Source: Aeoliella mucimassa (lineage in GTDB: Bacteria; Planctomycetota; Planctomycetia; Pirellulales; Lacipirellulaceae). Taken from it: a stretch of 64,000 nucleotides of DNA. Within the stretch, counting starts at the first letter, position 1. Each line of letters begins with the position of its first letter. The notes below the pieces were generated by a model. That model was not told the DNA's origin. It ran no database searches and saw only the letters and a program-made list of their open reading frames with translations. Location of the stretch: positions 4,526,001 to 4,590,000 of the forward strand of contig NZ_CP036278.1 in NCBI RefSeq assembly GCF_007748035.1, in the 5' to 3' direction. Shown here piece by piece: positions 20,606 to 54,026 of this stretch. The translations under genes and the position numbers were made by a program.

Positions 20606-20966
20606 GGGGGCGAACAGGGTTCGACCGGATAGGCGAAGCGTAAGTGGCGTGTCGTGGTTGATCGGTGGCCCACGTAAAAAGCCGATCGCAACCTTCAATT
20701 GCCGAAGGTAACTACGCTTTGGCTGCCTAGATTTAGGCTGCCCGTTTGCCAGCAGCTCGCCGGAAGCAGCTGACCGAACGTATAACCCCCTCCGGACCGC
20801 TGCGAGTCATTGCTGAGCACGCTCGCGGTTAAATAAGTTCTTGGCTAGTGCGTTGGTAGCCCTGCCCGCGAGGCGCCCAACGTGCGAAATCAAAACTCGT
20901 AGGACACACACGTAGAAGCTTGCGTGGAGATATTACGGGACGCGGGTTCGATTCCCGCCGCCTCCA
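20606..20966 (+). ncRNA. ssrA: transfer-messenger RNA (tmRNA)
   Basis: The 5' end GGGGGCG (20606-20612) pairs with CGCCTCC (20959-20965), and GAACAGGGTTCGACCGG is the usual tmRNA opening. The T-arm GCGGGTTCGATTCCCGC stands at 20942-20958. The tag frame begins at 20701 after the conserved GTAAAAAG region and reads AEGNYALAA then TAG (20728-20730). CCA is not encoded. tmRNA rescues stalled ribosomes and tags the nascent chain for degradation. The 3' end is the integration site of the island that follows; the 28-bp core restores it, so the RNA stays intact. Confidence 0.95.
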
Positions 20967-22277
20967 CTTATCATTTTGCGTGCCAGAGGATGACTTTGGC
21001 TGTCGCGAGATGACGTAACCCCTGCAATCGCAGGGGTTTTTTAATTCACCCTCTTCATCCTCCTCATCTTCGCCATTGTCACTATTTGACACTGGTTGAC
21101 TCGAAGAGACGCCTGTTCCGCTGCCAATCCGCTGCCAGTTTCCCTCGGTTGCTTCCTCCGGGACATTTGGAAGTGGCAGCTTCGAGAGTGCCTTCGCTTG
21201 GTCTGGGAGCCGGATGTGGGTGTACTTCATCGTCTGCCGAACATCGGTGTGACGGGCCAGTTCTCGGGCCTCGGCCAACGTAGCTCCGTTGCGAAGCAGT
21301 TCGGTGATGTGGGTGTGTCTGCCCGCCGCGTGGAAGTCGGCTGTCCCCTGTTCGTTCGTGTACGGGATGTCTGCCGCCTCAAGGTCGGTTTTGACCATGA
21401 GCCAGGTCTTCTTGCGGTCGAGATTCGGAAACAACAGTGCATCAGGCTCAACTCCATCGAGCCAAACCTCTAGCAATGCGACCAACTCCGGATGCAGCGG
21501 GAGGACATCTTCGCGGCGGTGCTTGGAACAAGCCGCCTCGACTCGCAGGACGGGCTGGTCGACCTCAAGTTCGAAGCTCCTGCTGGTCAGGCTGGCAAGC
21601 TCCTTTCTGCGAAGGCCTGTCAGATAGGACAAAAGATAAACCTGTGCCCGCATTGGTCCCGGATAGCCTTGGACGGTCTTTGTGCTTTCACGGGCAGATT
21701 TAAGGAGTTTGGCGAATTCATCCGGAGTGAGTGCCCGCCGTTTGTGTCGTACGTCGACTTGCGTGTTCAAACGCTCCAGGGCGACCAGCGGATTGCGGTC
21801 TAATCTGCCCATATCGACCAGCCAGTTGCAGAAGCCGTCGATGGCCTGCACGTAGTGGTTGTATGTGCGGTTACCAAACTTCTGTTTTCGCTTCATTTGG
21901 CGAAGAGCCGACGCGATGGTGTCGACTCGGAGGCTGCTAAGCGTTGTCGCGTTTGCCGCTTCAATTACGCGACGGATGCGACCTATGGTCAGCTTGACGT
22001 GCTTGGGAGTGTTGTCTGATAGGCTCTCCTCAAACTCTTGAAGATGCTCTTCGATAGGCGACATTTTGACTTTCAGTCGCCGCTCATCTTCTGGGTCGAT
22101 AAGCCCGCGTTTGCGAAGCATCGCCTCTCGCTCATACTTCGCTGCAAGCTGCTGCGTGAGCCCCTTATCGGTGTATCCTTTCTTGGTTCGCCGCTTACCT
22201 TCGTGGTCATCGTACGAGAAATAGTAGACGGCGTTCTTCTTCCCTTTGTCACGGCCTCGTTTGAATACGGATGCCAT
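20829..22277 (-). CDS. int: tyrosine integrase of the ssrA island (C-terminus altered by integration)
   Basis: The ATG at 22277 has a strong GGAGG site and gives 482 residues in the integrated state. Catalytic residues are Arg223 (TGLRRKEL), probably Lys252, His316 and Arg320 in FHAAGRHTH, His343 and the nucleophile Tyr352 (MKYTHI). The HAAGR spacing is one longer than the usual HxxR. Residues 1-436 are island-encoded, 437-445 (KWRRRESNP) come from the att core, and the last 37 come from antisense ssrA. In a closed circle the frame would instead run into 53998-53775 and give 519 residues. It overlaps ssrA on the opposite strand by 138 bases. Confidence 0.92.
   Translation of the reverse strand: MASVFKRGRDKGKKNAVYYFSYDDHEGKRRTKKGYTDKGLTQQLAAKYEREAMLRKRGLIDPEDERRLKVKMSPIEEHLQEFEESLSDNTPKHVKLTIGRIRRVIEAANATTLSSLRVDTIASALRQMKRKQKFGNRTYNHYVQAIDGFCNWLVDMGRLDRNPLVALERLNTQVDVRHKRRALTPDEFAKLLKSARESTKTVQGYPGPMRAQVYLLSYLTGLRRKELASLTSRSFELEVDQPVLRVEAACSKHRREDVLPLHPELVALLEVWLDGVEPDALLFPNLDRKKTWLMVKTDLEAADIPYTNEQGTADFHAAGRHTHITELLRNGATLAEARELARHTDVRQTMKYTHIRLPDQAKALSKLPLPNVPEEATEGNWQRIGSGTGVSSSQPVSNSDNGEDEEDEEGELKNPCDCRGYVISRQPKSSSGTQNDKWRRRESNPRPVISPRKLLRVCPTSFDFARWAPRGQGYQRTSQELI
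20942..20969 (+). repeat. attL core (28-bp direct repeat within ssrA)
   Basis: These 28 bases (starting GCGGGTTCGATTCCCGC, ending CCTCCACTT) are identical to 53999-54026. They cover the T-arm and acceptor end of tmRNA, a favoured target of tyrosine integrases. Confidence 0.92.
21019..21042 (+). terminator. intrinsic terminator inside the island edge, facing ssrA transcription
   Basis: CCCCTGC and GCAGGGG form a perfect 7-bp stem with an AATC loop, followed by six T. It lies 53 bp after tmRNA and within the antisense int coding region. It works only for plus-strand transcripts, so it probably ends ssrA transcription now that the native terminator is about 33 kb away. Confidence 0.82.
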
Positions 22278-22279
22278 CT

Positions 22280-22603
22280 CTACAACCTCCCCATGAGCTT
22301 GTACAAAGGCCGCGTGAACACGGCATACATCAGCTTGTTGATGAGAGAGTCGGTTGCAGGACAACCTTGCTCTATCCACGTAAGAATATCGCTCCGCCGC
22401 CAACGGACGGCACGCCCTACTTTGACCGATTTGGGTAAATCGCCTTTCGCCTTGAGACGCCAAATCGTCCGCACCGATACCTGAAGGCAGTGGGCAATTT
22501 CTTCCGCTGTCATCATCATAGGGGCATCTTGGAGCGAATCCGGCGTAGCCCGCTCTAGCGAGTCGTCGTTGTGCTCGTGTGCAGGTTCTCGATTCTCTGC
22601 CAT
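22280..22603 (-). CDS. helix-turn-helix excisionase-like protein
   Basis: From the ATG at 22603 the protein has 107 residues. The MerR/AlpA-type HTH reads MTAEEIAHCLQVSVRTIWRL, then KAKGDLPKSVKVGRAVRWRR and ILTWIEQG. This is the form of recombination directionality factors and AlpA-like regulators. It ends two bases before the integrase start, so the two are one operon and the protein probably directs excision. Confidence 0.82.
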   Translation of the reverse strand: MAENREPAHEHNDDSLERATPDSLQDAPMMMTAEEIAHCLQVSVRTIWRLKAKGDLPKSVKVGRAVRWRRSDILTWIEQGCPATDSLINKLMYAVFTRPLYKLMGRL

Positions 22604-22779
22604 AACGGCCTCGTCGGCTCGCAATGTCGGAATGGCAACGGTGGATTTGATTCTAGCGACGGAGTTTGGCTCCGGTTAGGTCGGCGGAGCGGTTCCTGGC
22701 GTGCGGAGGGGCCAGCGGGTATATTCTACACCTTGAAATCTCGATTGTCACCTGCCACTTTTCAAGGTAGGTTTGAAGC

Positions 22780-23937: not shown

Positions 23938-23940
23938 CGG

Positions 23941-24876: not shown

Positions 24877-25151
24877 GACTCTCCATGCGATTCGCCGTGC
24901 CGCCTTACAAGAGACGCACCGGTCTTGTACGACTTGTGCCGTTTGACCGTTGACTATGCGTGGAGATTCCTGCTACTGTCGGTTTAGGGATACCGGAACA
25001 GTCGTTCCAACGCATTTGCCAGTGTGTTGACCATTGTCGTGGCGGTCGACGCTACTTGTTCATAAGTGACTCCAATTGTTGGCGACGGAATGTGCATCCG
25101 CCGCACGCGTTAGTTCAGAGTCACAGTAGCACTCGCCCGATGGGTTTGTCA

Positions 25152-25379
25152 CTACAGCAAATCGGCGAGGGCGGGATGTATCAGAATCCGCTTTTTCTCT
25201 TGCTTCGGCTTTAGCCGAGACAACTCCCATGCCTCGACGTCACACCGGCGGGCATAGCGGATGCGTCCCCGCTGCTCGTAAGGGAGTTCTCCGGCCAACA
25301 TGGCTGCAACTACGGTGTCGCGACGCATTCGCTGCTCTTTTCGTATCTCTTCAACAGTCATCCATCGCTTCTGCTGCAT
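25152..25379 (-). CDS. small HTH protein (excisionase-like)
   Basis: The ATG at 25379 is preceded by GGAGAACACC and gives 75 residues: MTVEEIRKEQRMRRDTVVAAMLAGELPYEQRG and RYARRCDVEAWELSR, a short DNA-binding fold of the excisionase/MerR type. It diverges from the Clp-N protein gene across about 130 bp and may regulate that promoter. Confidence 0.65.
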   Translation of the reverse strand: MQQKRWMTVEEIRKEQRMRRDTVVAAMLAGELPYEQRGRIRYARRCDVEAWELSRLKPKQEKKRILIHPALADLL

Positions 25380-38738: not shown

Positions 38739-41048
38739 TCAGTTCTCATCGCCCTCATCGTCTTGGTCGGGTAGATAGAAGGTCTCTTCCTCATCGTCCC
38801 AGAGCATCTTGCTGAGGTCATGCTTCTTTTCACGGCCTTGGTGCTCGGGCGTCTCTGGCTCGTTCGGCTTTGCGGGACGAGGCCGGAGAGGAGTAGCAGC
38901 TTCTCCTCCGCGAAGACTGACGGGGCTTTCAGGTTGAGGTGCCGCCGCAGGGGCTGGCGGAGTTGAAGTCGCTTTGGGAGGGAGAGGTCTGGTGTGGTCG
39001 TCTCCATCGAATTGAAAGCCGAGTGCTTGTAAAGAGCCAAACAAGTCCCTGGGAGGGCGGAACCGGCCTTTGGGAGTAGGATAGACGTCCTTTTCTGAAA
39101 AGCGAAACGTTTGACCGGCGACCTTGTAGCAAATCTCCGTCGCACTCCACAAGCGTTCGTCGAGTTGCTTGGGAGAATGGAACTGGGTGTTGCCGTAGTA
39201 AACGTCACGCGGCAAATGGCCCCGATAGGGCGGATGCATAGGTACATCGAAGTAACCAAACACACCACTTTCATATTGCGGTACTTCCCGGTCGGCGGAT
39301 GCCAAAGGAAGCTGCATAAATACTTCTGCTGGTACGGCAGGTCGAGTTAGTCGTTGGAAAGACTTCGTCTTTGAAGTGCCAACGCTGTGACTGGAAGGAG
39401 CGTCTTGTTCAATCGCGGGTGATTTGGACCGAGACTCGGAAGTTGAAGTGAGTTCGACTAGAACGTCCTGGGCACCGATTTGGTCGGACATCCATCGTGC
39501 CGTCTCTGCACTTTTTACACGCAAGTAGGCTCGGAACCCACATGCCCCAAGGATGCCGTTCGCCGACTTGCCGTAGATGTCCGACAGGGTCGCAATGTCG
39601 TGAATGCCCAGGGCGATACTGAGGCCCAGGCCGGGAGCAGTCTCCAAGGCGTGCTCGATGACGGGAAGTCGCCCAAGCCGTGCAAACTCATCGAGAATCA
39701 TGAAAGTGTGGTGTTTTCGGGTGCGGGCGTTGTCGAGCAATTCATGGAACAAGAAATAGAGAATTGCCTGATTGATGGGTTGCAGGTCCGCGTGATTGCG
39801 AAGGCTGTTGCCAATTACTAGCCCTTTGGATTGATGGTTGACCCAATGACTCAAGCTGAGTCGAGCACTGGCTCTGGACCATGCCGTGGCGACGTTCAGA
39901 TAGCGTTGAGAGCACGCGTCCAGGTCACTGAGAACGTTTTGCTGAGTCTGGCCATCTCCTTGAATGTGGGTCAAGTATTGACCTCGTCCTTCGTCTGTGG
40001 AGCACAGCACCGAGCGGATATTCTCCCGCTTGATGGAAAGCATGAGGTCGAGAAACGTCCAGCGGTCACCAGCACACTCAATGAGAGTGCGTATCACCGC
40101 CGTGAGAAGCTGCCTCGACGTTTGCAGGAAGTAGTCACGTCGTGCGTGACCGTCACCAGGTATCAAGATACCAGCGAGGGTGCTCGCCGATTCAGCATCG
40201 ACGTCCTTGGCAATGTCCCAGGCAACTCCACGCGAGTCGTAGGCGTTAAGCAGGTAATAGAAATGCGTGGCTGTCTTTCGTTTGCTGGAGGGGTGAAGCA
40301 GCGGAAGCAGGTCGCCCTTGAAGTCATAGACAACCGTGCGGACCGCTGGGTTCAAAAACATGCTTTGTAGGAAGAGTCGAAGGATGGTAGTCTTTCCACT
40401 TCTGGTCGTCCCCGTCACTAGAAAATGGCTCTTCCGTGCATCGGACAATCGGTAGCGTAGCGGTCCCCAACGGATGCCGTCATCGGGGGAAGCTTCTGAG
40501 GAGAATTCGAGAATCTCTTGCTGAGCCAACCTAGAGCCGCTGCAGAAGACATCCCCGTTGGGGAGTCGTTCTCGCTGTTTATATCCGTGAGGCAGCGGAG
40601 TCTTGGGAATGTCCGCGTCTTGGAGGCTCTCGGTGATGCAGTCCGCCAGAGCATTCCATAATTCCATCGATGGTTCAGCTCCTCCTTGGTAGGCGAAGGC
40701 AAACGGGTTGCGTTGCGGGTTCGTATGGTCCGTGGCGGACCGTTCGAATCTGAACCTGGGGCGTTTGTTCTTGAGGAAGGGAAGGACAAGCGAATTCGTG
40801 ACCGCACAAGGGCATATTCTTGTGTGTGCCAGCTTGAAGAAGTTCTTTTGGCGTTGAGCTGCAGCCAGTTCTCGCGTTTTCTTGCTATACCACCCGGCGA
40901 CGTCACGCCAGTAGTTTGGAAAACCCTCGGCGAAAGCCTGTGCCGGTTCAGAGAAGACTCCTAGTGACTCCCAAAACTCGGTGTCTCCGTAATCGTAAGG
41001 CTTGCCGTGTTCATTCGAGAGCTTATAGAGCAATGCTAACTCCCCCAT
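38739..41048 (-). CDS. type IV coupling protein (VirD4/TraD-like ATPase)
   Basis: The 769-residue protein has Walker A VTGTTRSGKTT (around 211-221), Walker B FMILDEFARLGRLPV (around 455-468) and the later PALSLAIALGIHDIATL-like region typical of TraD/TraM-recognition ATPases. The C-terminal 130 residues are Pro/Glu-rich and acidic. These hexameric pumps deliver relaxosomes to a type IV secretion channel. No relaxase or T4SS channel genes are seen in the window, so the island would need helpers or is a degenerate conjugative element. It overlaps the upstream gene by 13 bases. Confidence 0.85.
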   Translation of the reverse strand: MGELALLYKLSNEHGKPYDYGDTEFWESLGVFSEPAQAFAEGFPNYWRDVAGWYSKKTRELAAAQRQKNFFKLAHTRICPCAVTNSLVLPFLKNKRPRFRFERSATDHTNPQRNPFAFAYQGGAEPSMELWNALADCITESLQDADIPKTPLPHGYKQRERLPNGDVFCSGSRLAQQEILEFSSEASPDDGIRWGPLRYRLSDARKSHFLVTGTTRSGKTTILRLFLQSMFLNPAVRTVVYDFKGDLLPLLHPSSKRKTATHFYYLLNAYDSRGVAWDIAKDVDAESASTLAGILIPGDGHARRDYFLQTSRQLLTAVIRTLIECAGDRWTFLDLMLSIKRENIRSVLCSTDEGRGQYLTHIQGDGQTQQNVLSDLDACSQRYLNVATAWSRASARLSLSHWVNHQSKGLVIGNSLRNHADLQPINQAILYFLFHELLDNARTRKHHTFMILDEFARLGRLPVIEHALETAPGLGLSIALGIHDIATLSDIYGKSANGILGACGFRAYLRVKSAETARWMSDQIGAQDVLVELTSTSESRSKSPAIEQDAPSSHSVGTSKTKSFQRLTRPAVPAEVFMQLPLASADREVPQYESGVFGYFDVPMHPPYRGHLPRDVYYGNTQFHSPKQLDERLWSATEICYKVAGQTFRFSEKDVYPTPKGRFRPPRDLFGSLQALGFQFDGDDHTRPLPPKATSTPPAPAAAPQPESPVSLRGGEAATPLRPRPAKPNEPETPEHQGREKKHDLSKMLWDDEEETFYLPDQDDEGDEN

Positions 41049-41586: not shown

Positions 41587-42621
41587 GGCCTTGTTGACTA
41601 ACTCCACTCGAACTGTGGAAGCCCGAGTTGGGTGAATTGATTGATGATTTTACAGCGCAAGCGGGCTTCCGTTTGTTGGTTTTCGAATACTCGGTTTTTG
41701 AGATGGCTCCCAAAGCTTTGTTTCACTCGGTACATGGTCGTTTCCGCCAAGCTTCTACGATGATAGCCCACTTCCTCTTTCCAACTCCTACGCCCCTTGC
41801 GTCGAATCTGACGAATTGCCTCGTCCCGGGGCAAAGGCTCCTCCGCAGAGTTGCCATGTTGTTTGATCTTGGCGTTGTGCTGCGGCGGAATCACCGGCTC
41901 AATGCCTTCGGATTCCAGCCCTTCATAAACCTTCCACTTGTCGTAACTACCGTCGCCGTGAAACTTTTTTACGGGCTGCTCCACCTGCTCCAGCATTTCG
42001 GGAACCGCATCGGCATCGTGGCAACTGTTCTCGGTCAAAATCTCCGCCACAATCTCGCGGGTGTCAGGATTCACCGACAAATGCAGCTTCCGCCATGTCC
42101 GCCGCTTCGACTTGCCATGCGTCCGCATCTTCCATTCGCCCTCGCCAAACACTTTCATGCCGGTGCTATCCACCACGATATCGATGTCGCCCCTCTTGTT
42201 AGCGATATCGAGCGAAACATTCAGCTTGCTGGCTCGCTTGGCGAGCGAAGAATAATTGGGAATCGCTGCCTCGACGCCCAACATCGCCACCAGCGAGCGG
42301 CCGAATCCCTCAGTCTGCCGATAGGGAAGTTTCAGCAGTTCGCGAATCGTCAGCAAGCACTCGATCGCCGTATCGCTGAAGACAAAAGGGCGACCGACTT
42401 TTGTCTGGTCGTTAGGATGTTCCCAGTTCTCCAACGCCTCGTCGCTAAACCAAATAGTGATGTTTCCACGCTCGATGAGCGACTTGTTATACTCCTTCCA
42501 GTTCGTGACTTTGTAGGTTCGTTTTTCTTTCGTAGCCATGTTCGATCTCCGTAAAAAAGGTACGTGGTTCCATTCCACGTTAGTTTTTACGGAGGTTTGT
42601 GACTAATTGTTCAACAAGGCC
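41587..42621 (-). mobile_element. IS5-family (IS903-like) insertion sequence, copy 2
   Basis: It has the same 1035-bp length, ends and encoded protein as copy 1. The flanks do not match: ATATCAATC on the left, ATTTGAATG on the right. Lack of a target duplication together with two broken genes at its edges indicates that adjacent DNA was deleted or rearranged after insertion. Confidence 0.92.
41598..42539 (-). CDS. IS903-like DDE transposase (copy 2)
   Basis: The frame is intact and identical in translation to copy 1 (313 residues, same start and catalytic motifs). The two copies are about 24.6 kb apart in the same orientation, so recombination between them could delete the region between, including ssrA and the int end of the island. 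Confidence 0.93.
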   Translation of the reverse strand: MATKEKRTYKVTNWKEYNKSLIERGNITIWFSDEALENWEHPNDQTKVGRPFVFSDTAIECLLTIRELLKLPYRQTEGFGRSLVAMLGVEAAIPNYSSLAKRASKLNVSLDIANKRGDIDIVVDSTGMKVFGEGEWKMRTHGKSKRRTWRKLHLSVNPDTREIVAEILTENSCHDADAVPEMLEQVEQPVKKFHGDGSYDKWKVYEGLESEGIEPVIPPQHNAKIKQHGNSAEEPLPRDEAIRQIRRKGRRSWKEEVGYHRRSLAETTMYRVKQSFGSHLKNRVFENQQTEARLRCKIINQFTQLGLPQFEWS

Positions 42622-42833
42622 ATTTGAATGCCTGAATTACGTGCAACATCGCGTGCCTGGTATTCGAGTCTAGCGTCGGCCAAACATTGTGAAGCAGGTG
42701 CAGCTCGCGGATGATTTGCAGGTCGAAATCGGAGCACTCGCTACAGTGACAATCGGACCGCTGCCAGCCCTTTTTCGGGTGCACAAAACACCTTGTTTTT
42801 TAGGGTGAAATGCGTGGCGGACTGCGGGTTCTA
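42622..42833 (-). pseudogene. decayed right end of an ssrA element with integrase-tail remnant
   Basis: The stretch aligns with the island's right end (53876-54010) through GACAATCGGACCGCTGCCAG, CACAAAA..CCTTG, TAGGGTGAA and CTGCGGGTTC. On the minus strand it encodes a relative of the integrase tail: IIRELHLLHNVWPTLDSN versus LTWELHQLHLAWPNLPAE. It lacks an 11-bp piece and is frameshifted to a stop in the att frame. The IS903-like copy cuts its end. The att core keeps only GCGGGTTC before the IS630-like element. Confidence 0.7.
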
Positions 42834-42839
42834 TTATAC

Positions 42840-43996
42840 GCATTCTAAAGAAGAGCTGCGCGCTTTCTATTGCGCTTTCCTATTCCCCCCATCATAATGC
42901 GACTTTCCGAGAACATGGAGGTCGCGATGAAAGTGGCGGGGCATCTTCCGCTTGCGGAGTTAAAGCGATTGGAGCGTGTGGAGAAGAACGTCAATCGCTC
43001 CAAGCGGTTGCGGATTCTGATCTTAGGTCACGAGGGCTGGACGGCCCCCGCTGTGGCAGCCGCTGTTGGGCTATCGCGACGGGCGTGCCAGGAGTGGGTC
43101 GCCCGATACAATCGACACGGGCTGGCGGGGCTGGACGACCACCGCGGTGGGTCGTTGAACCTGCCACTCACAGCCGACCAAGAGCAGACGTTTCGTGAGC
43201 GTCTCGCGGCAGGGCCAACGAGCGAAGACCTTGTCTGCTCGTTGCGGGGCAAGGACTTCCAACGCATCTTGGCCGAGGAGTTCGGCGTGAGGCGGTCGTT
43301 GCCTGCGGTGTACTGGCTGCTACACCGATTGGGCTACAGCTACCTGCGTCCCAGGCCGCGTCATCGCAAAGCAGACCCTGAAAAGATCGAGGCGTTCAAG
43401 CGGGAGTGGCCTGAGCGAATCAAGGAGATCGCCGCGGAGCATCCCCATAAACAGCTGCGGGTCTACTTCCAGGACGAATCACGGTTCGGACAGCAGGGGA
43501 CCAACACCAACCTGTGGGCCGAGCGGGGCTCCCGACCGACCGCCGTCCGTCAAACCGAATACGAATACTTGTGGGTGATTGGGGCGGTCTGCCCGGAAAC
43601 CGGACACGCCGAGGGCCTGCTGAGCCCGCAACTGAACACGAAGATCATTAACTCGTTCTTGGAATCGTTCTCCGAAACGATCCCCGAGGGCGAGCACGCC
43701 GTGATGATCTGGGATGGCGCCGGCTTCCACACCAGCAAGGCAATTCAGGTCCCAGAAAACGTGTCGCTGGTGCAACTGCCGCCCTACAGCCCTGAACTTA
43801 ACCCAATCGAAAACCTCTGGCATTACCTCAAAAGCCACTTCTGGAGCAACCGGGCCTACGACGACTACGATGACTTGGAAGAAGCGGCCATGACCGCATG
43901 GCGGACCGCCGTGCTCAACGAAGAACTCATCAAAACCGTCTGTGCCGCCCCGTATGTTGATGGCGGCTCAAACGCGCAGGTTTAAATTAGAATGCG
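42840..43996 (+). mobile_element. IS630-family element, type A
   Basis: Ends CGCATTCTAA and TTAGAATGCG are inverted repeats flanked by TA (42838-42839 and 43997-43998), the IS630/Tc1 target duplication. The length is 1157 bp with one intact gene. Confidence 0.85.
42927..43985 (+). CDS. IS630-family transposase (type A)
   Basis: The protein has 352 residues from the ATG at 42927. N-terminal HTH (WTAPAVAAAVGLSRRACQEW) is followed by the catalytic parts VYFQDESRFG, MIWDGAGFHTS and PPYSPELNPIENLWHYLK, the D-D-E of the Tc1/mariner-like group. The frame is continuous with no frameshift. An upstream frame from 42870 is possible but adds no domain. Confidence 0.92.
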   Translation: MKVAGHLPLAELKRLERVEKNVNRSKRLRILILGHEGWTAPAVAAAVGLSRRACQEWVARYNRHGLAGLDDHRGGSLNLPLTADQEQTFRERLAAGPTSEDLVCSLRGKDFQRILAEEFGVRRSLPAVYWLLHRLGYSYLRPRPRHRKADPEKIEAFKREWPERIKEIAAEHPHKQLRVYFQDESRFGQQGTNTNLWAERGSRPTAVRQTEYEYLWVIGAVCPETGHAEGLLSPQLNTKIINSFLESFSETIPEGEHAVMIWDGAGFHTSKAIQVPENVSLVQLPPYSPELNPIENLWHYLKSHFWSNRAYDDYDDLEEAAMTAWRTAVLNEELIKTVCAAPYVDGGSNAQV

Positions 43997-44319
43997 TATT
44001 AGAGCAGGTGAATATCGCGTTACGCATTCTCTTTGTTTGCCCCAAGTCCTCACTCTCGGCGGCGGGAAACGAAACCCGTAGCCCTGGCTTTGAGGCTTCA
44101 GCGTTGTCTCCGGAATGGTCGCGAAAATACCGAGGTCTTACTTTATCGCGTGCAATTCGGCACGCAACGATTCTTCTTCGTCGGGTTGTCTAACCTCTTA
44201 CGTTTCCACTACGCAAGAGCGGCGGTAGGGAGTTCCGAGCTATGCTTGTAGCCGCTGGAGGGAGTGGGGATAATAATCGAATAAATCAGTCATCGTTCCC
44301 TTGCCGACGGAGCACTCTG
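43997..44319. other. intergenic region upstream of superoxide dismutase
   Basis: No gene is supported. The region begins at the IS630 flank and ends in the AT-rich leader of the dismutase gene (ATAATAATCGAATAAATC). It marks the left edge of the metal-resistance part of the island. Confidence 0.4.
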
Positions 44320-45030
44320 ATGAGCCACTTCTCACGACGCAACTTCGTGTTTCTGTCCTCAGGCGCGGCAATTGGAAATATGGTCCTGCCGGGACTTGCA
44401 ACGGCGGAAGAGGCACACGCTGAGGGATTCTACTTCTCGCATTCAGGACTGGTCACGGGGCAGCCGAAGCCACTGAAGCATAAGTCGATTCCGGGCTTTC
44501 TCAGTGCAGAGCAAATCGCTCCCCATCACACAGCTCACTATGGTGGGGCACTGAAGGGTTACACAGCTGCGGATGCGACCATTGAAGCCTCCGTCAAGAG
44601 CGGCGAAAAACTCGACGCGGCGGCTTATGGAGCATTGAAGCGAATCATCAACAGCAAGGGCAATAGCGTCGTACTGCATGAGATGTATTTTGACGGATTG
44701 ACGCCGACCACCATGGAACCGGCTGCTGACGTTCGTTCAGCAATCGATGCCAGATTCGGCTCGGTTGAAAAATGGGCGGAAGACTTCATCGCATCTGCCA
44801 AGGAGGCCGCGGGTTGGGCGATGTTGGTCAAACATCCAGTAAATGGGAAGCTTTACAACGTCGTCAGTGACGAACACGCGATGGGCATTCTCTGGATGGC
44901 AGTTCCCCTGGTCGTCATCGATACCTACGAGCACGCCTTCTACATTGACTACGAAAATCGGAAGGCCGAGTACGTCGAGAAGTTCATCGAACACATAGAC
45001 TGGAACGCAGTGAACAAGCGATTTGCGTAG
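44320..45030 (+). CDS. exported Fe/Mn superoxide dismutase (Tat signal)
   Basis: The 236-residue protein starts MSHFSRRNFVFLSSGAAIGN, a twin-arginine signal, so a folded enzyme is exported. Metal ligands can be placed at His69 (SAEQIAPHH), His120 (SVVLHEMYF), Asp201 and His205 (DTYEHAFYIDY). The enzyme converts superoxide to H2O2 and O2. In the usual position of the DVWEHAYY motif the Trp is replaced by Tyr. It lies just before a copper/heavy-metal efflux operon, which fits protection from metal-induced oxidative stress. Confidence 0.9.
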   Translation: MSHFSRRNFVFLSSGAAIGNMVLPGLATAEEAHAEGFYFSHSGLVTGQPKPLKHKSIPGFLSAEQIAPHHTAHYGGALKGYTAADATIEASVKSGEKLDAAAYGALKRIINSKGNSVVLHEMYFDGLTPTTMEPAADVRSAIDARFGSVEKWAEDFIASAKEAAGWAMLVKHPVNGKLYNVVSDEHAMGILWMAVPLVVIDTYEHAFYIDYENRKAEYVEKFIEHIDWNAVNKRFA

Positions 45031-45837: not shown

Positions 45838-45914
45838 TCTGCATTAGGTTCTGAGTCGATTCTCTGGCTGGTTATCGGCCATATCCGCTTGGGCATTCTT
45901 CGTTGGAGAGTGTG

Positions 45915-47312
45915 ATGTTTCGTAGGTTGCTGGTTTCATTAGCCGCATTGTGTGCCATCGCAGCGGTGGGCGTAGGGGTCTGGTTCGGCTACCAGCAGTG
46001 GCAGTCGGAACCCGCAGCTTCATCACCGGTCGAGGAGGCGTCCCTGGGTGCCGTGAAAACCGAAGACGGCAAAGTCATCGTCAGCGACCGTGCTCAACTA
46101 AACTTGGGACTCACGGCCAAGCCGCTGGAGACCCGCGTGTACTGGAAAACCATCACGCTGCCGGGGATGATTGTCGACCGCCCCGGCACGAGCGACCGCG
46201 ACGTGGTGACGCCCGCCGCTGGAGTCGTCACTCAGATTTACCACGTGCCGGGTGACTTGGTGCAGCCGGGCGAGCGACTGTTCACGATTCGACTTGCCAG
46301 CGACTCACTTCAGCAGACTCAGGCCGAATTATTCAAGGCCAGCGAGAACATCAAGCTGGCCGAGGCCAAGCGGCAGCGTCTAGTGAGGGGTGGCGAGGGA
46401 ATCCCACAAGCAAGAGTCATTGAAGCGGAAAGCGAAATCGCTCGCCTCAAAGTTGCCGTCCAAGGGTATCGCCAAGAGTTGCTCAATCGCGGTCTCCCCA
46501 ACGCCGAAATCGACGGCATTGCTCGTGGCAAATTACTAAGCGAACTCTCGATTGTTGCCCCGCGACTCGACTTTGCGGGCGATGCACCCAAGTCGGCAGA
46601 AGCTTTGGGATTTGAGCTGCATGAGTTGCTAGTAGAAATGGGTCAGCAGGTGCAGGCGGGGGCGACGCTCTGTAATCTTGCCAACCACCAACTTCTCGCT
46701 GTCGAAGGAAAGGCGTTTCGCGACGAGACAGCCCTGCTACAGCGAAGCCTCGAAGAAGGCTGGCCGGTAGAAGTCGATTTTCGCGAAGGAGCAACGACGG
46801 CTTGGCCCACCTTCGACCCGCTACTTCCCATCAGCTACATCGACAACTCGATTGACCCGGTCAATCGGACATTCAGCTTTCTGGCGTTGTTAGAGAATCA
46901 GCACAAGGTTGTCGAGCGGGATGGGCGTTCGCGACTGCTATGGCGATTCCGTCCTGGACAAAAGGTGCTGCTTCAAGTTCGCGTCGAAAAGATGGAGGAC
47001 GTTTTTGTCGTGCCCGCTGATGCTGTTGTTGCCGACGGGCTGGAGAACTACATCTTCACGCAAAACGTGAACACGTTCGAGCAAGTCAGTGTGCGAGTTC
47101 TCCATCGAGACCGCGAAACTGTGGTGATAGCCAACGATGGAGCGTTGGAGACCTATGAGCGGGATGGTGTGCAGAAGACGTTCGCCGCAGTCGCTCAGAA
47201 TGCAGCAGCCCAACTGAATCGTATGACCAAGACAAAATCGGATGGCTTGCCCCCTGGATATCATATCCACGCCGACGGCAGCCTCCACAAGAACGAAGAC
47301 GAGGACCGGTAA
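45915..47312 (+). CDS. RND periplasmic adaptor (CusB/CzcB type)
   Basis: The protein has 465 residues with an N-terminal membrane anchor (residues 5-24), a lipoyl/barrel-sandwich part (VVTPAAGVVTQIYHVPGDLV, QPGERLFTIR), a helical hairpin (about 135-205) and the beta-barrel parts. The last residues contain HIHADGSLH, a possible metal-binding tail. It bridges the inner-membrane pump and outer-membrane channel. It is followed after eight bases by the pump gene. Confidence 0.88.
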   Translation: MFRRLLVSLAALCAIAAVGVGVWFGYQQWQSEPAASSPVEEASLGAVKTEDGKVIVSDRAQLNLGLTAKPLETRVYWKTITLPGMIVDRPGTSDRDVVTPAAGVVTQIYHVPGDLVQPGERLFTIRLASDSLQQTQAELFKASENIKLAEAKRQRLVRGGEGIPQARVIEAESEIARLKVAVQGYRQELLNRGLPNAEIDGIARGKLLSELSIVAPRLDFAGDAPKSAEALGFELHELLVEMGQQVQAGATLCNLANHQLLAVEGKAFRDETALLQRSLEEGWPVEVDFREGATTAWPTFDPLLPISYIDNSIDPVNRTFSFLALLENQHKVVERDGRSRLLWRFRPGQKVLLQVRVEKMEDVFVVPADAVVADGLENYIFTQNVNTFEQVSVRVLHRDRETVVIANDGALETYERDGVQKTFAAVAQNAAAQLNRMTKTKSDGLPPGYHIHADGSLHKNEDEDR

Positions 47313-47320
47313 GGACACCT

Positions 47321-50300
47321 ATGCTCAACGCAATCATTCGTACCGCCCTTCGTCAACGCACCCTCGTGCTCGTCATCGCGATAGGGGTGTTGGTTTACGG
47401 TGGCTACTTAACCACCACGATTCCTATCGACGTCTTTCCTGACCTCGACCGACCCCGCGTCGTGATTCTCACCGAGTGCCCTGGCCTTTCGCCCGAGGAA
47501 GTCGAAACGCTGGTGACTCACCCCATCGAAACGGCCCTGCTGGGAGCATCCGGGGTGGAGGCGGTGCGTAGCCAGTCGAGTCAGGGGATGAACGTTATCT
47601 ACGTCGAGTTTGGCTGGCGGACCGAAATTCGCTCGGCACGACAAGTCGTCATGGAGAGGTTGGCCACGGTGCCGATGCCCGAGGGCATCCGCCCACAGAT
47701 GACGCCCCCCGCTTCGATTATGGGACAAATCCTGCACGTTGGTGTTCACCACCGAGACGGACCAGAGGGAGGTCGTTTGACGCCGATTGTGGGGACCGAC
47801 CTCCTCGCCGAGCTTACCGACGAGAGTGAGCTATCGGTCTGGAATCCACTTGAGCGGGACGACCTTGCTACTTGGGAACGGGTCTCTTACGACCAGCTGC
47901 AATGGGAGGGGACTGCTGAACGTCCAACGGCGAGGTTCGTTGTCCGCAACTCTCCCCTTACCGCGACGTTTCAGACACCGCTTGAGTCACAGATGGACCT
48001 GCGGACGACGACCGACTGGGTCATCCGTCCGCGGTTGCGAAAGCTATCCGGCATCGCAGAGGTCATCATCATGGGGGGCGAGGTGAAGCAATACCAAGTG
48101 CTCATCGACCCTCGTCGATTGCAGGAATATGACGTCACGCTGCAGGAAGTAGAGCAGGCGATAAAGGAGAATAACCTCAATACGAGCGGTGGATTTCTGA
48201 AAGAAGGTCAAAGTGAACGCCCGGTGCGAGTCATCGGTCGCCTCGGTCCGCTTCCGCTGCAAGTGATTTCCGAGCTGCTAAAAATCCCGGTCAAGCCGAA
48301 CGCCGACCGGACCGTACTGCTTCACCATGTCGCGGAAGTGGTCGAAGGGCCTGCCCCTAAGCGGGGTGACGCAAGCATTGATGGCCACTCAGGAGTAGTC
48401 ATTACCATTGTCAAGCAGCCGCACGCCGACACACGTCTGTTGACCGACCAAGTGAAAGCCGCACTACGCGAAACAGAGTCGACTCTTCCGGCTAACGTCG
48501 TATTCAATACAGACCTGTTTCAACTCAAGAGCTTCATAGACCGTGGCATCTATTATGTCGAGGAAGCGTTAGTAGTTGGTGCGGTGCTAGTCGTCATCGT
48601 CTTGTTCTTATTCCTCCTGAATCTTCGCACCACCTTCATCACGCTCACGGCGATTCCGTTGTCGCTCGTAATGACGACCATCGTGTTTCGTTTGATTAGC
48701 TTTCTCACTGATACAGAACTGTCAATAAACGTCATGACGCTGGGCGGCATCGCCGTTGCGATGGGCGAGTTAGTGGACGATGCCATCGTCGACGTCGAGA
48801 ACATCTTCCGTCGGTTGAGCGAGAACAACGCCCGAGAAAATCCACGTCCTTCGCTCGTTGTCGTCTACGAGGCGAGCCGAGAAATCCGCTCCGCCATCGT
48901 GTTCGGTACGGCAGTGGTCATTCTCGCGTTCATGCCGTTGTTCGCCCTCTCTGGTGTAGAGGGTCGGCTCTTCATTCCCTTGGGACTGGCGTACATCACT
49001 TCGATTCTCGCTTCGCTTCTGGTCTCGTTGACCGTCACGCCGGTCCTTTCCTACTACTTGCTCCCCCAATCGCGGGCCACTCATCGTCACCAAGATGGCT
49101 TACTTCTCCGCGTGCTGAAGTGGGGGGCGAGTTATCTGATTCGCTTCAGCATGCGGTACGCGGGCATTTTGCTCGTCGTAACCTGGGGGCTGGTTGGCTT
49201 TAGTGCGTGGCAACTTACTCAGTTGGGTGCGGACTTCTTGCCCAAATTCGACGAAGGAAGCGTGCAAATCAACGTGGCACTCCCTGGCGGTTCTTCACTC
49301 AAGGCGTCGAATGATGTCGCGGCGGTCATCGACCGGCAACTCATGGCGATGCAGAAGTCGCCCGAGAATCCTGACGGACCGGTGCTGCATTTCGCCCGTC
49401 GCACGGGCCGAGCCGAGTTGGACGAACACGCCCAGCCGGTCAACGTTGGGGAGTATATCCTCACGATGAACCCGCATTCGGGCATCGGTCGCGACGAGTT
49501 CTTGCGACAAGTCATCGCAGATTTGCGAAATGAAGTTCCGGGAGTGGAAATCGATGCGGAGCAGCCTCTCTCGCACCTCATCAGTCATATGCTCTCCGGG
49601 GTCAACGCCCAGATAGCGATTAAGTTCTTCGGGCCTGACCTCGATAAGCTGCGGGAATTGGCAGAGGAGGCCCGCGATGCTCTTGTAGAGATTGAAGGAG
49701 TCACCCCGCCCATTGTCGACCCGCAGCAACGTGTCGACGAGTTGCACGTGGTTCTGCGTCCCGACGACCTTTCGGTATATGGGCTGAGCCGTGCCTACGT
49801 TGCTGAGTTTGTGCAGACGGCCCTCAAGGGCGAAGCGGTTTCACAGGTGTTGGAAGGGCAGCGGAGATTCGACCTCGTCGTCCGCCTTCAAGAACCTTAC
49901 CACTCCGACCCGGAGTTTCTTAAGGAGTTGCGTCTCGACCTTCCCAGTGGGCAGGGACAAGTCCGCCTGAAGGACGTCGCCGACTTCCCCGCAGCGGCTA
50001 GCGGACCGAATCTCGTCAACCGCGAGAACGTTCAGCGTAAGCAAGTCATTCGCTGCAATGTCAGCGGTCGCGACCTAGCGAGTGCTGTCGACGAAATCGA
50101 AGAGCGTGTCCGTCAACGCATCGACCTTCCAGAAGGTTACTTTGTTGAGTTCGGCGGGCAGTTCGAGGCACAGCGGTCAGCGACGCTGATGATTACGGGA
50201 CTGGCCAGCGTCTCGCTGGCAGGCATCTTCGTTGTACTGATGATGCTGTTTCCTTCCACTCGTATCACGCTTCAAGTCCTCAACGCAGTGCCAACGGCAT

Positions 50301-50740
50301 TCATCGGGGGCGTGATGGCCCTCGTGGTGACCGGGCAAACGGTCACCGTTGCCAGTCTCGTCGGATTTGTGTCGCTTGCTGGTATCGCAGTACGCAACGG
50401 CATTCTGCTTGTGACCCACTACTTCTACCTATTGAAGGAAGAAGAGCTGCCGTTTTCACGCGAGACAATTCTACGCGGCAGCTTGGAACGATTGTCACCC
50501 GTGCTAATGACTGCGATTACAGCTGGCATTGGACTTCTTCCATTAGTGCTAGGTGGACATAAACCGGGCTTAGAAATCCTCTATCCGGTAGCCACGGTAA
50601 TCGTCGGCGGTTTGCTGACTTCGACCTTCTGTGAATTCTTCCTGCACCCCGGCTTGTTCTGGAAGTTCAGTGGCAAAGATGCGGAGCGATTGGTGCGAAG
50701 TGAAGGCTCCGATGCCGACCTATTACGAGACTCGGAATGA
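47321..50740 (+). CDS. heavy-metal RND efflux pump (CusA/CzcA family)
   Basis: The 1139-residue pump starts MLNAIIRTALRQRTLVLVIA and has 12 hydrophobic segments with two large periplasmic loops. The TM4 proton-relay region reads AMGELVDDAIVDVENIFRRL, with the acidic residues of HME-type RND pumps. It is longer than usual (about 1040) owing to insertions near residues 145-215 (HHRDGPEGG to VRNSPLTA). Expected substrates are Cu, Ag, Zn, Co or Cd; sequence alone does not decide. It moves metal from periplasm and inner membrane outward with CusB- and TolC-like partners. Confidence 0.9.
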   Translation: MLNAIIRTALRQRTLVLVIAIGVLVYGGYLTTTIPIDVFPDLDRPRVVILTECPGLSPEEVETLVTHPIETALLGASGVEAVRSQSSQGMNVIYVEFGWRTEIRSARQVVMERLATVPMPEGIRPQMTPPASIMGQILHVGVHHRDGPEGGRLTPIVGTDLLAELTDESELSVWNPLERDDLATWERVSYDQLQWEGTAERPTARFVVRNSPLTATFQTPLESQMDLRTTTDWVIRPRLRKLSGIAEVIIMGGEVKQYQVLIDPRRLQEYDVTLQEVEQAIKENNLNTSGGFLKEGQSERPVRVIGRLGPLPLQVISELLKIPVKPNADRTVLLHHVAEVVEGPAPKRGDASIDGHSGVVITIVKQPHADTRLLTDQVKAALRETESTLPANVVFNTDLFQLKSFIDRGIYYVEEALVVGAVLVVIVLFLFLLNLRTTFITLTAIPLSLVMTTIVFRLISFLTDTELSINVMTLGGIAVAMGELVDDAIVDVENIFRRLSENNARENPRPSLVVVYEASREIRSAIVFGTAVVILAFMPLFALSGVEGRLFIPLGLAYITSILASLLVSLTVTPVLSYYLLPQSRATHRHQDGLLLRVLKWGASYLIRFSMRYAGILLVVTWGLVGFSAWQLTQLGADFLPKFDEGSVQINVALPGGSSLKASNDVAAVIDRQLMAMQKSPENPDGPVLHFARRTGRAELDEHAQPVNVGEYILTMNPHSGIGRDEFLRQVIADLRNEVPGVEIDAEQPLSHLISHMLSGVNAQIAIKFFGPDLDKLRELAEEARDALVEIEGVTPPIVDPQQRVDELHVVLRPDDLSVYGLSRAYVAEFVQTALKGEAVSQVLEGQRRFDLVVRLQEPYHSDPEFLKELRLDLPSGQGQVRLKDVADFPAAASGPNLVNRENVQRKQVIRCNVSGRDLASAVDEIEERVRQRIDLPEGYFVEFGGQFEAQRSATLMITGLASVSLAGIFVVLMMLFPSTRITLQVLNAVPTAFIGGVMALVVTGQTVTVASLVGFVSLAGIAVRNGILLVTHYFYLLKEEELPFSRETILRGSLERLSPVLMTAITAGIGLLPLVLGGHKPGLEILYPVATVIVGGLLTSTFCEFFLHPGLFWKFSGKDAERLVRSEGSDADLLRDSE

Positions 50741-50798
50741 GAAATGGTGCAATCGATGTACCTAGATGTTTGTTTCCTCTAATCGAAGGAGTGAGAAA

Positions 50799-51764
50799 AT
50801 GGAGCGATTTTGCATGTCAGTTTCGTTAGCCCTAGCAGTTGGTCTGCTTGCATTCGTGGGCTGTTCCAAGTCGCCTGATACCCCGACGCCCCCCACGACG
50901 GGACCTGTCGCCCAAACGCAATCCAAACCAGAAGGGGAGCACACGCATGGTGCTGGGCCGAACGGCGGCGTGGTCTTCGACCTCGGCAGCCATCACGTTG
51001 AGTTTACCGTCGACCACGATGCCCAGACTTGCAAGTTTCTCATCCTTGGACCCGATGAGAAAACCCCTTTGCCGGTTGCCGCATCCGAGTTTGTGGTGCG
51101 TATTGCCGAGACGAAAACCGCCGACGGCACGATTGTGGAACCAATGACCATCATTGTGGAACCGGTCGACCCGGTGGATGGCAAAGCGGCTGAGTTTATC
51201 GGAACCGACCCCGGAATCGCGAATGTCGCGGATTTTGCAGGGAAGGTTTCTGGCCAGGTCAACGGAAAGCCCGCCAGCGGCGAGTTCGACGAAAGTGCGA
51301 GTGGAGGGCATGGGCACGCCCACACCCCACACGACGGCATGGTCGCGGCTCTGCTCAATGAGGCCGGTTCCACGGTTGGTTTCGTCGAACTGAAGTTGCA
51401 CGACGACAAAGGGGATTTGGAACTTTGGCTCGCAAAGGACCGCGAAATCACCCAGCCCATGGACCTCCCAGTGGATACCGAAGTACAGGTCACTTTTGCG
51501 GACTTTGGTGACAAGACCGTCACGCTAAGCGTGCGAAACAAAGAAAAGAATGAAGACGAAGACGGGACTCCGAATCTGCGAAACGGCAAGACCAACTACT
51601 TCATCTTCCCAGGCGATTCCGGGCAAGACCCGAGCTGGTTGATGGGGAAGCAGTTCAAGTCGGCAGTGACGGTTTCCTTGAGTGCCGACGGCGTAAATTA
51701 CACGTCAGAGCAGTTCACGCTAGTGCCCCATACGCACGCGGATGGGGAGGGGCATTCTCATTGA
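50799..51764 (+). CDS. histidine-rich metal-binding lipoprotein
   Basis: ATG 50799 has AAGGAG at the right distance and gives 321 residues. Lipobox LLAFVGC marks it as a lipoprotein. His clusters EHTHGAGPNGG, GGHGHAHTPHDG and PHTHADGEGHSH flank two beta-rich domains. It resembles metal-binding accessory proteins that accompany RND pumps in planctomycetes; a role in loading or sensing metal is inferred. Confidence 0.75.
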   Translation: MERFCMSVSLALAVGLLAFVGCSKSPDTPTPPTTGPVAQTQSKPEGEHTHGAGPNGGVVFDLGSHHVEFTVDHDAQTCKFLILGPDEKTPLPVAASEFVVRIAETKTADGTIVEPMTIIVEPVDPVDGKAAEFIGTDPGIANVADFAGKVSGQVNGKPASGEFDESASGGHGHAHTPHDGMVAALLNEAGSTVGFVELKLHDDKGDLELWLAKDREITQPMDLPVDTEVQVTFADFGDKTVTLSVRNKEKNEDEDGTPNLRNGKTNYFIFPGDSGQDPSWLMGKQFKSAVTVSLSADGVNYTSEQFTLVPHTHADGEGHSH

Positions 51765-51777
51765 GAGGCAGCTCAAT

Positions 51778-52110
51778 ATGATGGGGTACATTTTGCGGGT
51801 AGCGATAGCGGTGGTCACCATCGTGGCAGTATCGGAGTTGTCAAAAACTCATCCACGGTATGGTGCACTGCTGTTATCGCTACCGCTGACCAGCATTCTC
51901 GCTCTCGGCTTTAGTTGGCAGCAGCATCACGACTTGGTGTCAGTCTCACAGCTCGCCAAGGACACGCTGATTCTCGTGCCGCTCGGGCTGCCGTTATTCG
52001 TTCCGCTGGCTCTGGCTTCCCATTACGGCTGGAATTTTTACGCCGCCTTCCTAGCCGGAATAGTCCTTGCAGCTATTACAGTCGGAAGCTGGCTCGCTTT
52101 TAGTGCGTGA
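51778..52110 (+). CDS. small four-helix membrane protein (DUF3147-like)
   Basis: From ATG 51778 the 110-residue protein has four hydrophobic helices and the pattern SKTHPRYGALLLSLPLTSIL, typical of the DUF3147 type of unknown function. It starts 13 bases after the lipoprotein gene and belongs to the efflux operon. Confidence 0.65.
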   Translation: MMGYILRVAIAVVTIVAVSELSKTHPRYGALLLSLPLTSILALGFSWQQHHDLVSVSQLAKDTLILVPLGLPLFVPLALASHYGWNFYAAFLAGIVLAAITVGSWLAFSA

Positions 52111-52177
52111 TTAAGTGATACCGTCGATACACAAGGAAGAAGCGGTGTAATGCGTACAAGGGGAAGGAGCCCCACCT

Positions 52178-53623
52178 TTGAATAAGAACCAGTATCAAGA
52201 CCGCCTACGGCGGCGGACGCTGCTCGTTGCCGTGCTGTTGGCTACTGCAGTGGTGCAACCTGCTTGGGGGCAGTCTGAGGACGTACCCTTGCGGCTAGAA
52301 AACCCGCTGGGCATGACGCCTTCGCCAATCGAGAGGCTTCCACCCCATGATAGCATTCCCGTCGATGCCTCAGAGAAGGGTCTGACGCTAGCAGATTTGG
52401 AAGCGATTGCTCTATCGCGGAACCCCTCCATCGCCCGTGCTGCCGATTTAGTGGGAGCTGCACGAGGTGCGTTCGTTCAAGCGGGCTTAGGCCCGAATCC
52501 ATCGTTCGGCTATGACGGACAGCAACTTGGGAGTGGAGGGTTGGCCGAGCAGCACGGTGTCGCGTTCGGGCAGGAGATTGTGACCGGTGGCAAGCTTCGC
52601 CTCAGTCGTGCAGTCGCCCGGAAACGTATCGAGTTGGCTGAGCAGCAGTTCGCCGCCCAAAGGCAACGTGTACTCACGGATGTTCGGCTCGCTTACTACC
52701 AGGTCCTCGTCGCTCAACGACAAATCAATCTGGCCGAAGAACTGATACGTGTGAGTGCTGAAGGGACACGTGCTGTTGATGCTTTGTACAAGGCCGCTGA
52801 GGTGGGGCGAGTCGATATCCTCCAAGCACAGTTAGAAGCCGAGCAGGCACAGATAACGCTCCACGCCGCAAAGAATCGATACGAGTCCGCATGGAGAGCT
52901 CTGACTGCGGTCATTGGGGAGCCTAATCTCAACCAACAGTCCTTGCTTGGTAACCCCGCGGCAGTCTCCAACGAAATGCAGTTCCAGGCCGTTCTTACCG
53001 AGTTGCAGAACCGGAGCCCTGAAGTGAGTGCGGCGTTTGCCGAATTGGAGCGTGCCCGATTCGCGGTGGATAGAGCAAGAGCCGAACCGATTCCCAATGT
53101 CACGGTGCTCGGCTTGGTGAACTGGCAAGACAACGGCATCGGCGGCAAGCCAGACGGCGGCGTGGCGGTCTCGATTCCCATACCACTGTTCAATCGGAAT
53201 CAAGGTGCGATTGCACAAGCTGAGCGTGAAGTAGCGGCGGCTCGCAATGCAATCGACCAAGTGGAGCTAAGCCTGCAACAACGACTGGCGGCGGTTTACG
53301 AGACGTATGCCGTGGCCCGCAATCAAGTAGAACGTTATCGAGAAATAATGCTCCCCGCCGCTAATGAAGCCCTCACGCTCTCCCGCAAGATGTACCAGGC
53401 AGGCGAATCCAACTTCGTTGCCGTTCTCACTGCCCAGCGTACATTCGCCCAAACCAACAGCAACTACCTGGACGCCGTACTACGCTTACGGACAGCGGAG
53501 GCACTTATGGAAGGGTTGCTATTGTCGGGAAGCTTGGACGGAGGAGAGGGCGTGGGCAACCCGGCTAATACGTCAACTCCGGACCAGAAGGGCATGATGG
53601 CTCCTTTGCTGCTGAATCGCTGA
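52178..53623 (+). CDS. TolC-family outer-membrane channel
   Basis: Translation probably starts at TTG 52178, placed nine bases after AAGGAG; no ATG fits. The 481-residue protein has a signal peptide (ending AWGQ) and the repeated helical hairpins of the OEP family (LADLEAIALSRNPSIARAAD; QAQLEAEQAQITLHAAKNRY; VAVLTAQRTFAQTNSNYLDA). It completes the tripartite efflux system. It is the last gene before the island's right end. Confidence 0.88.
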   Translation: MNKNQYQDRLRRRTLLVAVLLATAVVQPAWGQSEDVPLRLENPLGMTPSPIERLPPHDSIPVDASEKGLTLADLEAIALSRNPSIARAADLVGAARGAFVQAGLGPNPSFGYDGQQLGSGGLAEQHGVAFGQEIVTGGKLRLSRAVARKRIELAEQQFAAQRQRVLTDVRLAYYQVLVAQRQINLAEELIRVSAEGTRAVDALYKAAEVGRVDILQAQLEAEQAQITLHAAKNRYESAWRALTAVIGEPNLNQQSLLGNPAAVSNEMQFQAVLTELQNRSPEVSAAFAELERARFAVDRARAEPIPNVTVLGLVNWQDNGIGGKPDGGVAVSIPIPLFNRNQGAIAQAEREVAAARNAIDQVELSLQQRLAAVYETYAVARNQVERYREIMLPAANEALTLSRKMYQAGESNFVAVLTAQRTFAQTNSNYLDAVLRLRTAEALMEGLLLSGSLDGGEGVGNPANTSTPDQKGMMAPLLLNR

Positions 53624-53698
53624 GAAGTAGCACGAACCGGAGGCAACAAATGCCCCAAGTTCGTCAGCCCGTTAATCCGACTAGGCGACCGAAACTGC

Positions 53699-53715
53699 TG
53701 CGGTTCGAATCCGCA
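53699..53715 (+). other. isolated tRNA T-arm-like hairpin
   Basis: TGCGGTTCGAATCCGCA is a perfect 5-bp T-arm with a TTCGAAT loop. No acceptor or anticodon arm surrounds it. It may be a relic of an older attachment site near the island end. Confidence 0.35.
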
Positions 53716-53774
53716 AAGAGCAAGGTCTTGCTATATGCACAACAGGTCTGGTTCGAACCTCGTGTCGGGCTCGG

Positions 53775-53998
53775 TCACGAAAGGCACATGATGAGTTTGA
53801 TGGAATTAAGAATCTCGCGTCGGGATTCGGCAGGTAGATTTGGCCATGCCAGATGGAGTTGATGGAGTTCCCAGGTCAGTTCGAGGCTTGTATCGGGGCA
53901 CTCGCCAGACTGACAATCGGACCGCTGCCAGTCCGCTGCCAGCCCCTTTTGCGAAGCACAAAAGCCCTTGTTTTCTAGGGTGAAGTGGCACTCCGTCT
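53775..53998 (-). other. orphan C-terminal coding segment of the integrase (attP right arm)
   Basis: Starting in the att core at 54026 on the minus strand, the frame shared with int stays open for 83 codons to a TGA at 53775-53777. It reads KWRRRESNPQTECHFTLENK, then DWQRSDCQSGECPDTS and LTWELHQLHLAWPNLPAESR. It has no start of its own. In the excised circle it would be joined to codon 436 of int, giving the native C-terminus. Confidence 0.8.
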
Positions 53999-54026
53999 GC
54001 GGGTTCGATTCCCGCCGCCTCCACTT
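53999..54026 (+). repeat. attR core (28-bp direct repeat)
   Basis: Identical to 20942-20969 within ssrA. It marks the right junction of the island; chromosomal DNA resumes at 54027. Confidence 0.92.

Follow-up and report, generated by a model that had tools for sequence, protein, structure and literature searches.

What becomes of an integrase when the attachment site at which it recombines lies within its own gene is the question raised by a genomic island inserted at the 3' end of the tmRNA gene (ssrA) of Aeoliella mucimassa, whose genome is a single contig of 6.6 Mb. The window, that is, the whole stretch of 64,000 nucleotides analyzed here, shows the layout of a tRNA/tmRNA genomic island: int is bounded on one side by the complete target RNA gene and on the other, at the far end of the island, by the displaced 3' fragment of that gene. 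The tmRNA gene (positions 20606 to 20967, plus strand; tag AEGNYALAA) is the integration target, restored by the core of the island. The int gene (20829 to 22277, minus strand) encodes in its integrated form a tyrosine recombinase of 482 amino acids, in which a Pfam scan placed the Phage_integrase domain (PF00589) at residues 183 to 355 (E 2.9e-16), and residues R223, K252, H316, R320, H343 and Y352, which we take to be the catalytic ones, were unchanged across 9 aligned sequences. Starting at 22277, the frame enters at codon 437 the 28-bp attL core (20942 to 20969, minus strand), which is the 3' end of the tmRNA gene and gives the antisense reading WRRRESNP; the core starts 85 codons past the conserved Tyr352, and the final 46 codons of the integrated gene are made up of the core and of antisense tmRNA. 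The second copy of the 28 bp, the attR core (53999 to 54026, minus strand), is followed in the int frame by a displaced tail (53775 to 53998, minus strand, stop codon included). When the int frame was read through the shared core, a protein of 519 amino acids resulted that ends at a TGA at 53777-53775 and has the C-terminal end ELTWELHQLHLAWPNLPAESRREILNSIKLIMCLS. An earlier note on this DNA had claimed the in-frame entry into the core at codon 437, the open frame from the attR core to the stop at 53775-53777, the joined length of 519 residues and an intact catalytic part, and all four are borne out by the coordinates, with the reservation that the excised circle in which the two parts would join is inferred.

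Taken alone, the openness of the displaced tail is weak evidence that it belongs to int, because the +2 frame after the attR core of the window is also open for 63 codons, as would suit an open frame that had arisen by chance. The relatives of the integrase were more informative. Matches at E <= 1e-30 were present in 22 of the 43 genomes of the family, and in 18 of 28 relatives (L002 to L029) the open frame overlapped a complete tRNA or tmRNA gene in antisense, the targets among the relatives being tmRNA and tRNAs for Met, Ser, Lys, Arg and Leu; L030, whose frame continues for 745 codons, was excluded from this count. Known phages and plasmids contributed 13 and 10 records, respectively, at E <= 1e-5, none of which covers 80% of the query.

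A second core was searched for upstream of int in 29 of 32 relatives. It was found in 10 of them, and all 10 gave an open in-frame tail of 58 to 93 codons; in the other 19 no second core was found in the upstream DNA that was available, several of these being on short contigs. A held-out set was obtained by searching 26 genomes with few contigs, 15 of which matched at 30 places; 23 places from 13 genomes were used, the seven weakest being omitted, and in 15 of the 23 a core copy overlapped the end of a tRNA or tmRNA gene. This set was not blind to the presence of a tail in some genomes, since G647:1543856, G686:3936979, G428:833309 and 881539, G405, G437 and G670:C2:504209 were chosen with a known tail match, the frame of the match being unknown beforehand. 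The complete collection of 27 int/attR pairs comprised the window, 25 pairs from other planctomycete genomes and one viral pair (L197 with its other end L263), the last being one of three viral contigs tried; no core was found at the other end of L195 and L196.

At least 50 open codons followed the core in the int frame of 26 of the 27 pairs, in the +1 frame of one and in the +2 frame of two. Moreover, the tail motif DL..V...W..LP..(I/V)R..I..LV (53790 to 53924, minus strand, in the window) occurred in the int frame of 22 of the 27 pairs and in neither of the other two frames of any pair. The motif was called at a tail profile score above 6 bits, a cut chosen after the scores had been seen, and all segments were scored in the other frames. 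Eleven of the 27 rows (the window and 10 relatives) had contributed to building the profile, and among the 16 pairs outside profile building the motif was present in 11. The binomial value for the frame match (3e-11) overstates independence because the pairs are mutually related. As for the five pairs that lack the motif, G451 has only 13 open codons after the core, and G229:4262652, G428:171555, G428:844502 and G217 have 51 to 60 open codons whose ends differ or are similar only weakly.

The agreement between the two ends was also seen where one and the same tmRNA core is read in three different frames, as WRRRESN in the window and G010, as VEAAGIEP in G001 and as SGGGGNRT in G007:C9 (G001 and G007 belong to the same family as the window, and G005, another of the genomes, to the same genus), since the tail after the core continues in each member's own int frame. 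At a tandem site in G229 the tail-bearing core is in frame with an integrase 30 kb off, and the adjacent integrase reads the place of that core in another frame and then stops. In G229:C1:5890560-5930559 (L274, L275) two related integrases about 31 kb apart resemble a tandem pair, the core next to one of them bearing the tail that is in frame with the other.

Comparison of related tails indicated that this stretch is under constraint at the protein level. In all eight independent tail pairs pS exceeded pN, and the differences between paired tails were distributed over the three codon positions as 90, 61 and 122 (p 3.6e-5), or as 88, 59 and 111 when the kinase-like pair (L241, L242) was left out. 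On the basis of the frame and motif counts over the 27 pairs and of the constraint in 8 of 8 pairs, the possibility that the open frame past the core is due to chance was rejected, and we attach practically no weight to it. The earlier note had proposed to give up its reading if related elements showed no conserved tail beyond the core or if the junction were out of frame, and the reading passes on both counts.

The same data bear on the rival idea that a small gene with a product of its own occupies the far end of the island, the match of the tail frame with int being secondary. Many of the other tails do have a possible start codon in frame (ATG, GTG or TTG), and the motif also ends other proteins, for example the kinase-like L241 and L242, as such a gene might lead one to expect; nevertheless, in the window the sole in-frame start codon after the core is codon 70 of the 74 of the tail, and no start codon lies in the tail frame from the stop just before the core up to that codon. 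A separate gene would also leave unexplained why the motif was in the int frame of 22 pairs and never in another frame, and why L168, L136, L183, L249 and L025 carry it fused to int, so that we regard this explanation as very improbable.

Among these five, L168 contains a complete int, the core and the tail in a single frame. L136 and L249 have the same int-core-tail order in one frame, starting at contig edges, and L183 has it in frame within an open frame of just 248 codons, from which its N-terminal part must be missing or shifted. No tRNA or tmRNA gene was detected by ARAGORN in the L136 and L168 loci. In L025 the tail lies directly on int, and the core, at the end of a tRNA-Ser gene, is located about 250 nt beyond the stop codon. 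Because L025 keeps the tail with the core beyond the stop, the tail is a part of the integrase and not a by-product of the overlap. In four further loci int, core and motif adjoin but are out of frame; about 78 residues are missing from the N-terminus of L159, stops interrupt the frame of L184, the core of L154 is altered and L167 begins at a contig edge. L124, the closest relative (78%), showed no motif after the core.

The tail is predicted to be a helical hairpin carried on a disordered linker. In the L168 model, pLDDT stays under 50 across residues 375-496, and helices follow at 500-512 and 515-535, with block means of pLDDT of 78-86 over residues 501-530 and of 53 at the end, although the tail was present in only 6 of the 28 rows of the underlying alignment; it is by analogy with this model that the motif of the window would form a hairpin. 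Tn1549 Int, XerA, lambda Int and Cre are among the matches of the whole L168 model, in which residues 3-55, where a lambda-like integrase would have its arm-binding domain, form three strands and one helix. No NCBIfam entry matched a 30-residue tail peptide at E <= 0.1.

The tail profile matched at least 166 of 396 genomes of the order (E <= 1e-3) and at least 56 of 294 genomes drawn over the phylum (E <= 1e-5), both counts being lower bounds because scoring was limited to 18 or 25 candidates in each genome; some of the matches are ends of non-integrase proteins. The same motif ends the non-integrases L241:1894-3357 and L242:1831-3324, both kinase-like, and L247:834-1928, and it may represent a more general planctomycete C-terminal module. 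Fifty tail loci, the 30 best matches and 20 chosen by hand, were inspected for the tRNA T-arm motif, which occurred within 300 nt upstream of the tail in 25 and downstream in 2, sharing the open frame of the tail in 23 of the 25 upstream cases. When three duplicated places were reduced to distinct loci, the values were 22 of 47 upstream, 2 of 47 downstream and 20 of 22 in the same frame. The profile counts suggest that swapping of the tail is a common feature of one bacterial phylum.

Besides the core, the int frame appears to contain the arms of the attachment site. Two TGGCAGCGG repeats, 11 bp apart, lie inside int on the P side (21118 to 21137, minus strand; copies at 21137 and 21126), and two more, also 11 bp apart, lie inside the tail frame on the P' side (53922 to 53941, minus strand; copies at 53941 and 53930). 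Another copy is found at 42766, in a relic described below, and a sixth at 15086, outside the island, about 0.9 copies being expected in all. Direct repeats common to both sides of the core reached 11-27 nt in 8 of 14 cases, a length attained in 0-2 codon shuffles out of 200; the remaining 6 had only repeats of 9-10 nt, which 9-52 of the 200 shuffles reached. Judged by sequence, arm-type repeats thus flank the core within the int frame, a lambda-like feature for which no binding data are available.

The attP stretch of int may also serve the target RNA. A terminator-like hairpin lies downstream of the tmRNA gene, on the strand opposite int (21017 to 21038, plus strand). In the window alone it was not above chance (one found in a generic scan, 2.5 in shuffles), and the fold of this stretch gave a z of -2.06. 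Over 58 nonredundant integrases, a hairpin oriented for the target RNA preceded the core in 42, compared with 3 in the int direction and 5.1% in codon shuffles. Within the window and 10 relatives, all 4 tmRNA members had it and 5 of the 7 tRNA members did not. The hairpin, encoded in the int linkers of the window, of L124-L197 and of others, is possibly a replacement terminator for tmRNA. A host-side hairpin at attR was found in 8 of the 27 pairs (5 of 7 tmRNA sites and 3 of 20 tRNA sites), which supports displacement of the native terminator for part of the set only; none was found at attR in the window.

Such additional tasks of the attP stretch raised the possibility that the arrangement is merely a compact module, in which attP within int keeps enzyme and site together and supplies the target with a 3' end and a terminator, the tail being a general part of the enzyme whose loss upon integration is tolerated, whether the enzyme then stays fully active or is dead, with no regulatory role. 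The arm-type repeats and the terminator-like hairpin of 42 of the 58 members fit this explanation, as does the retention of the tail by L025 while integrated. On the other hand, an in-frame tail that is kept open and constrained is a cost that an attP downstream of int would avoid, and L025 indicates that such a position is possible; in addition, the prophage form of the integrase of phage Mx8 shows altered activity, according to the accessible part of a review (PMC4701971). We consider this explanation unlikely, although it retains more weight than a separate gene.

We consider it likely, instead, that attP lies wholly inside the int frame, that integration swaps the conserved tail and that this tail works in the free-state enzyme, most probably during integration. 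Sequence comparison establishes the anatomy, the agreement of frame in relatives, the protein-level constraint on the tail and the uninterrupted forms; the remaining steps are inferred. The whole attachment site, that is, arm repeats, core and arm repeats, would sit in the reading frame of int, and the excised circle, whose formation is itself inferred, would encode a full Int in which a long disordered linker, specified by attP DNA, connects the N-terminal and catalytic parts with the conserved C-terminal helical hairpin. Integration at the 3' end of ssrA, or of tRNA genes in other members, would cut the frame in the core and leave the hairpin part at the far end of the island, and the integrated int would then end in an arbitrary peptide that is the antisense of the target RNA gene. 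Selection needs translation, and the far-end frame of the window is without a start before codon 70 of the tail; it is simplest to suppose that the tail is of use to the free element and that the integrated form is a different enzyme. A role of the hairpin in the free-state enzyme, most likely in integration, where selection can see the tail, is inferred, and so is the change of activity on tail loss, which would lower or redirect activity once the element is integrated. Excision would be left to an HTH_17 protein or to an incoming full-length integrase. An HTH_17/AlpA-like frame, a candidate excisionase (22280 to 22624, minus strand; PF12728, E 1.1e-12), ends 2 nt ahead of the int start, and hence the gene structure need not be the sole control.

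Control of direction by the tail, through two protein forms that differ in activity, is likewise an inference made without activity data. As a tentative proposal, which we hold with rather less than even confidence, the hairpin tail could be a self-removing integration module on the enzyme of the free element, favoring integration and deleted by the very reaction that it promotes. If this were true, mobile elements throughout Planctomycetota would have direction encoded in the layout of the gene itself, in addition to an excisionase. The arrangement would provide many natural pairs of long and short integrases with which to ask whether an enzyme can encode its own direction, and it would explain integrases with tRNA-derived peptide ends and orphan short frames at island ends. 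The tail motif can also help to locate the far ends of islands.

The nearest known case is phage Mx8 of Myxococcus xanthus, which likewise has a tyrosine integrase with attP in int, a new 3' end upon integration and a catalytic part that is kept. In the parts of the reports that were available, the integrated form is altered in specificity (PMC6070905) and the prophage form of Int is less active (PMC4701971). The elements studied here differ from Mx8 in that their targets are tmRNA or many tRNAs and in that the tail is common across a phylum. Mx8 Int (AF396866, 5085-6809) scored -2.8 bits against the planctomycete tail profile, which is no match, and blastp aligned only 15 residues with the int of the window (E 0.052), which is not kinship in sequence. 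Within it lies the stretch STGLEPV, which by our reading looks like the end of a tRNA read in antisense, and the long tail that comes after this stretch does not resemble the planctomycete tail. The arrangement follows Mx8 in its logic, and in this single comparison no kinship to Mx8 Int was detectable.

The earlier note had pointed instead to the archaeal SSV integrases, a likeness that stands with regard to the att site within the integrase gene, enzyme and site forming one module (PMC8371274, seen in part), and fails in that Mx8 is the closer case and that the catalytic domain of the window is kept whole, whereas SSV-type integration leaves two inactive gene parts, as stated in the same available portion. 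A suicidal integrase of the SSV type was rejected, the core lying 85 codons past Tyr352 with no split between catalytic and N-terminal parts. Phage_integr_3 (PF16795), described in that portion as the domain of SSV-type integrases (PMC8371274), was absent among the Pfam matches of the window int at E up to 1. Streptococcal ICEs in rumA also have an att site in the integrase gene, with an excised form of other length and C-terminus, according to the accessible section of an ICE review (PMC4701971); they differ from the window in having serine integrases and rumA as target. Mycobacteriophage BPs and its relatives have attP in a phage gene whose product is changed by integration, as judged from a partial text (PMC4557955). 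Integrases that extend across attP are allowed for in the Islander paper, whose available text names Mx8 and SSV (PMC4383910), the ICE review counts elements whose att site falls within the integrase gene as very few (PMC4701971), and the archaeal recombinase review, within the portion consulted, restricts recombinases that disrupt their own gene to archaea (PMC8371274). We did not find the planctomycete arrangement in titles and abstract openings of the open literature, a source that leaves most subscription journals out of scope. In the integration-dependent immunity of BPs, the altered gene is that of the repressor and not of the integrase.

The interior of the island contains a decayed relic of attR with its tail (42622 to 42833, minus strand; blastn), which is 73% identical to attR over 119 bp, spans the core end and one arm repeat and has broken frames. 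The earlier note had reported this decayed copy and had taken it as a sign that the tail is under selection; the relic is real, and the second part of the claim falls, since selection on the tail is supported by the comparisons of relatives (pS above pN in 8 of 8 pairs) and not by a decayed copy. The relic sits between two DDE transposase genes, at 41601-42578 and 42870-43982 (region 41598-43985), suggesting that more than one element contributed to the growth of the island. The cargo of the island, at 38742-41048, 44242-45027 and 45903-53620, includes a TrwB/TraD-like coupling protein, a superoxide dismutase domain and an efflux set composed of HlyD-like, AcrB-like and outer membrane efflux proteins. 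An rve-type transposase gene (54498-55379) lies about 470 bp outside attR.
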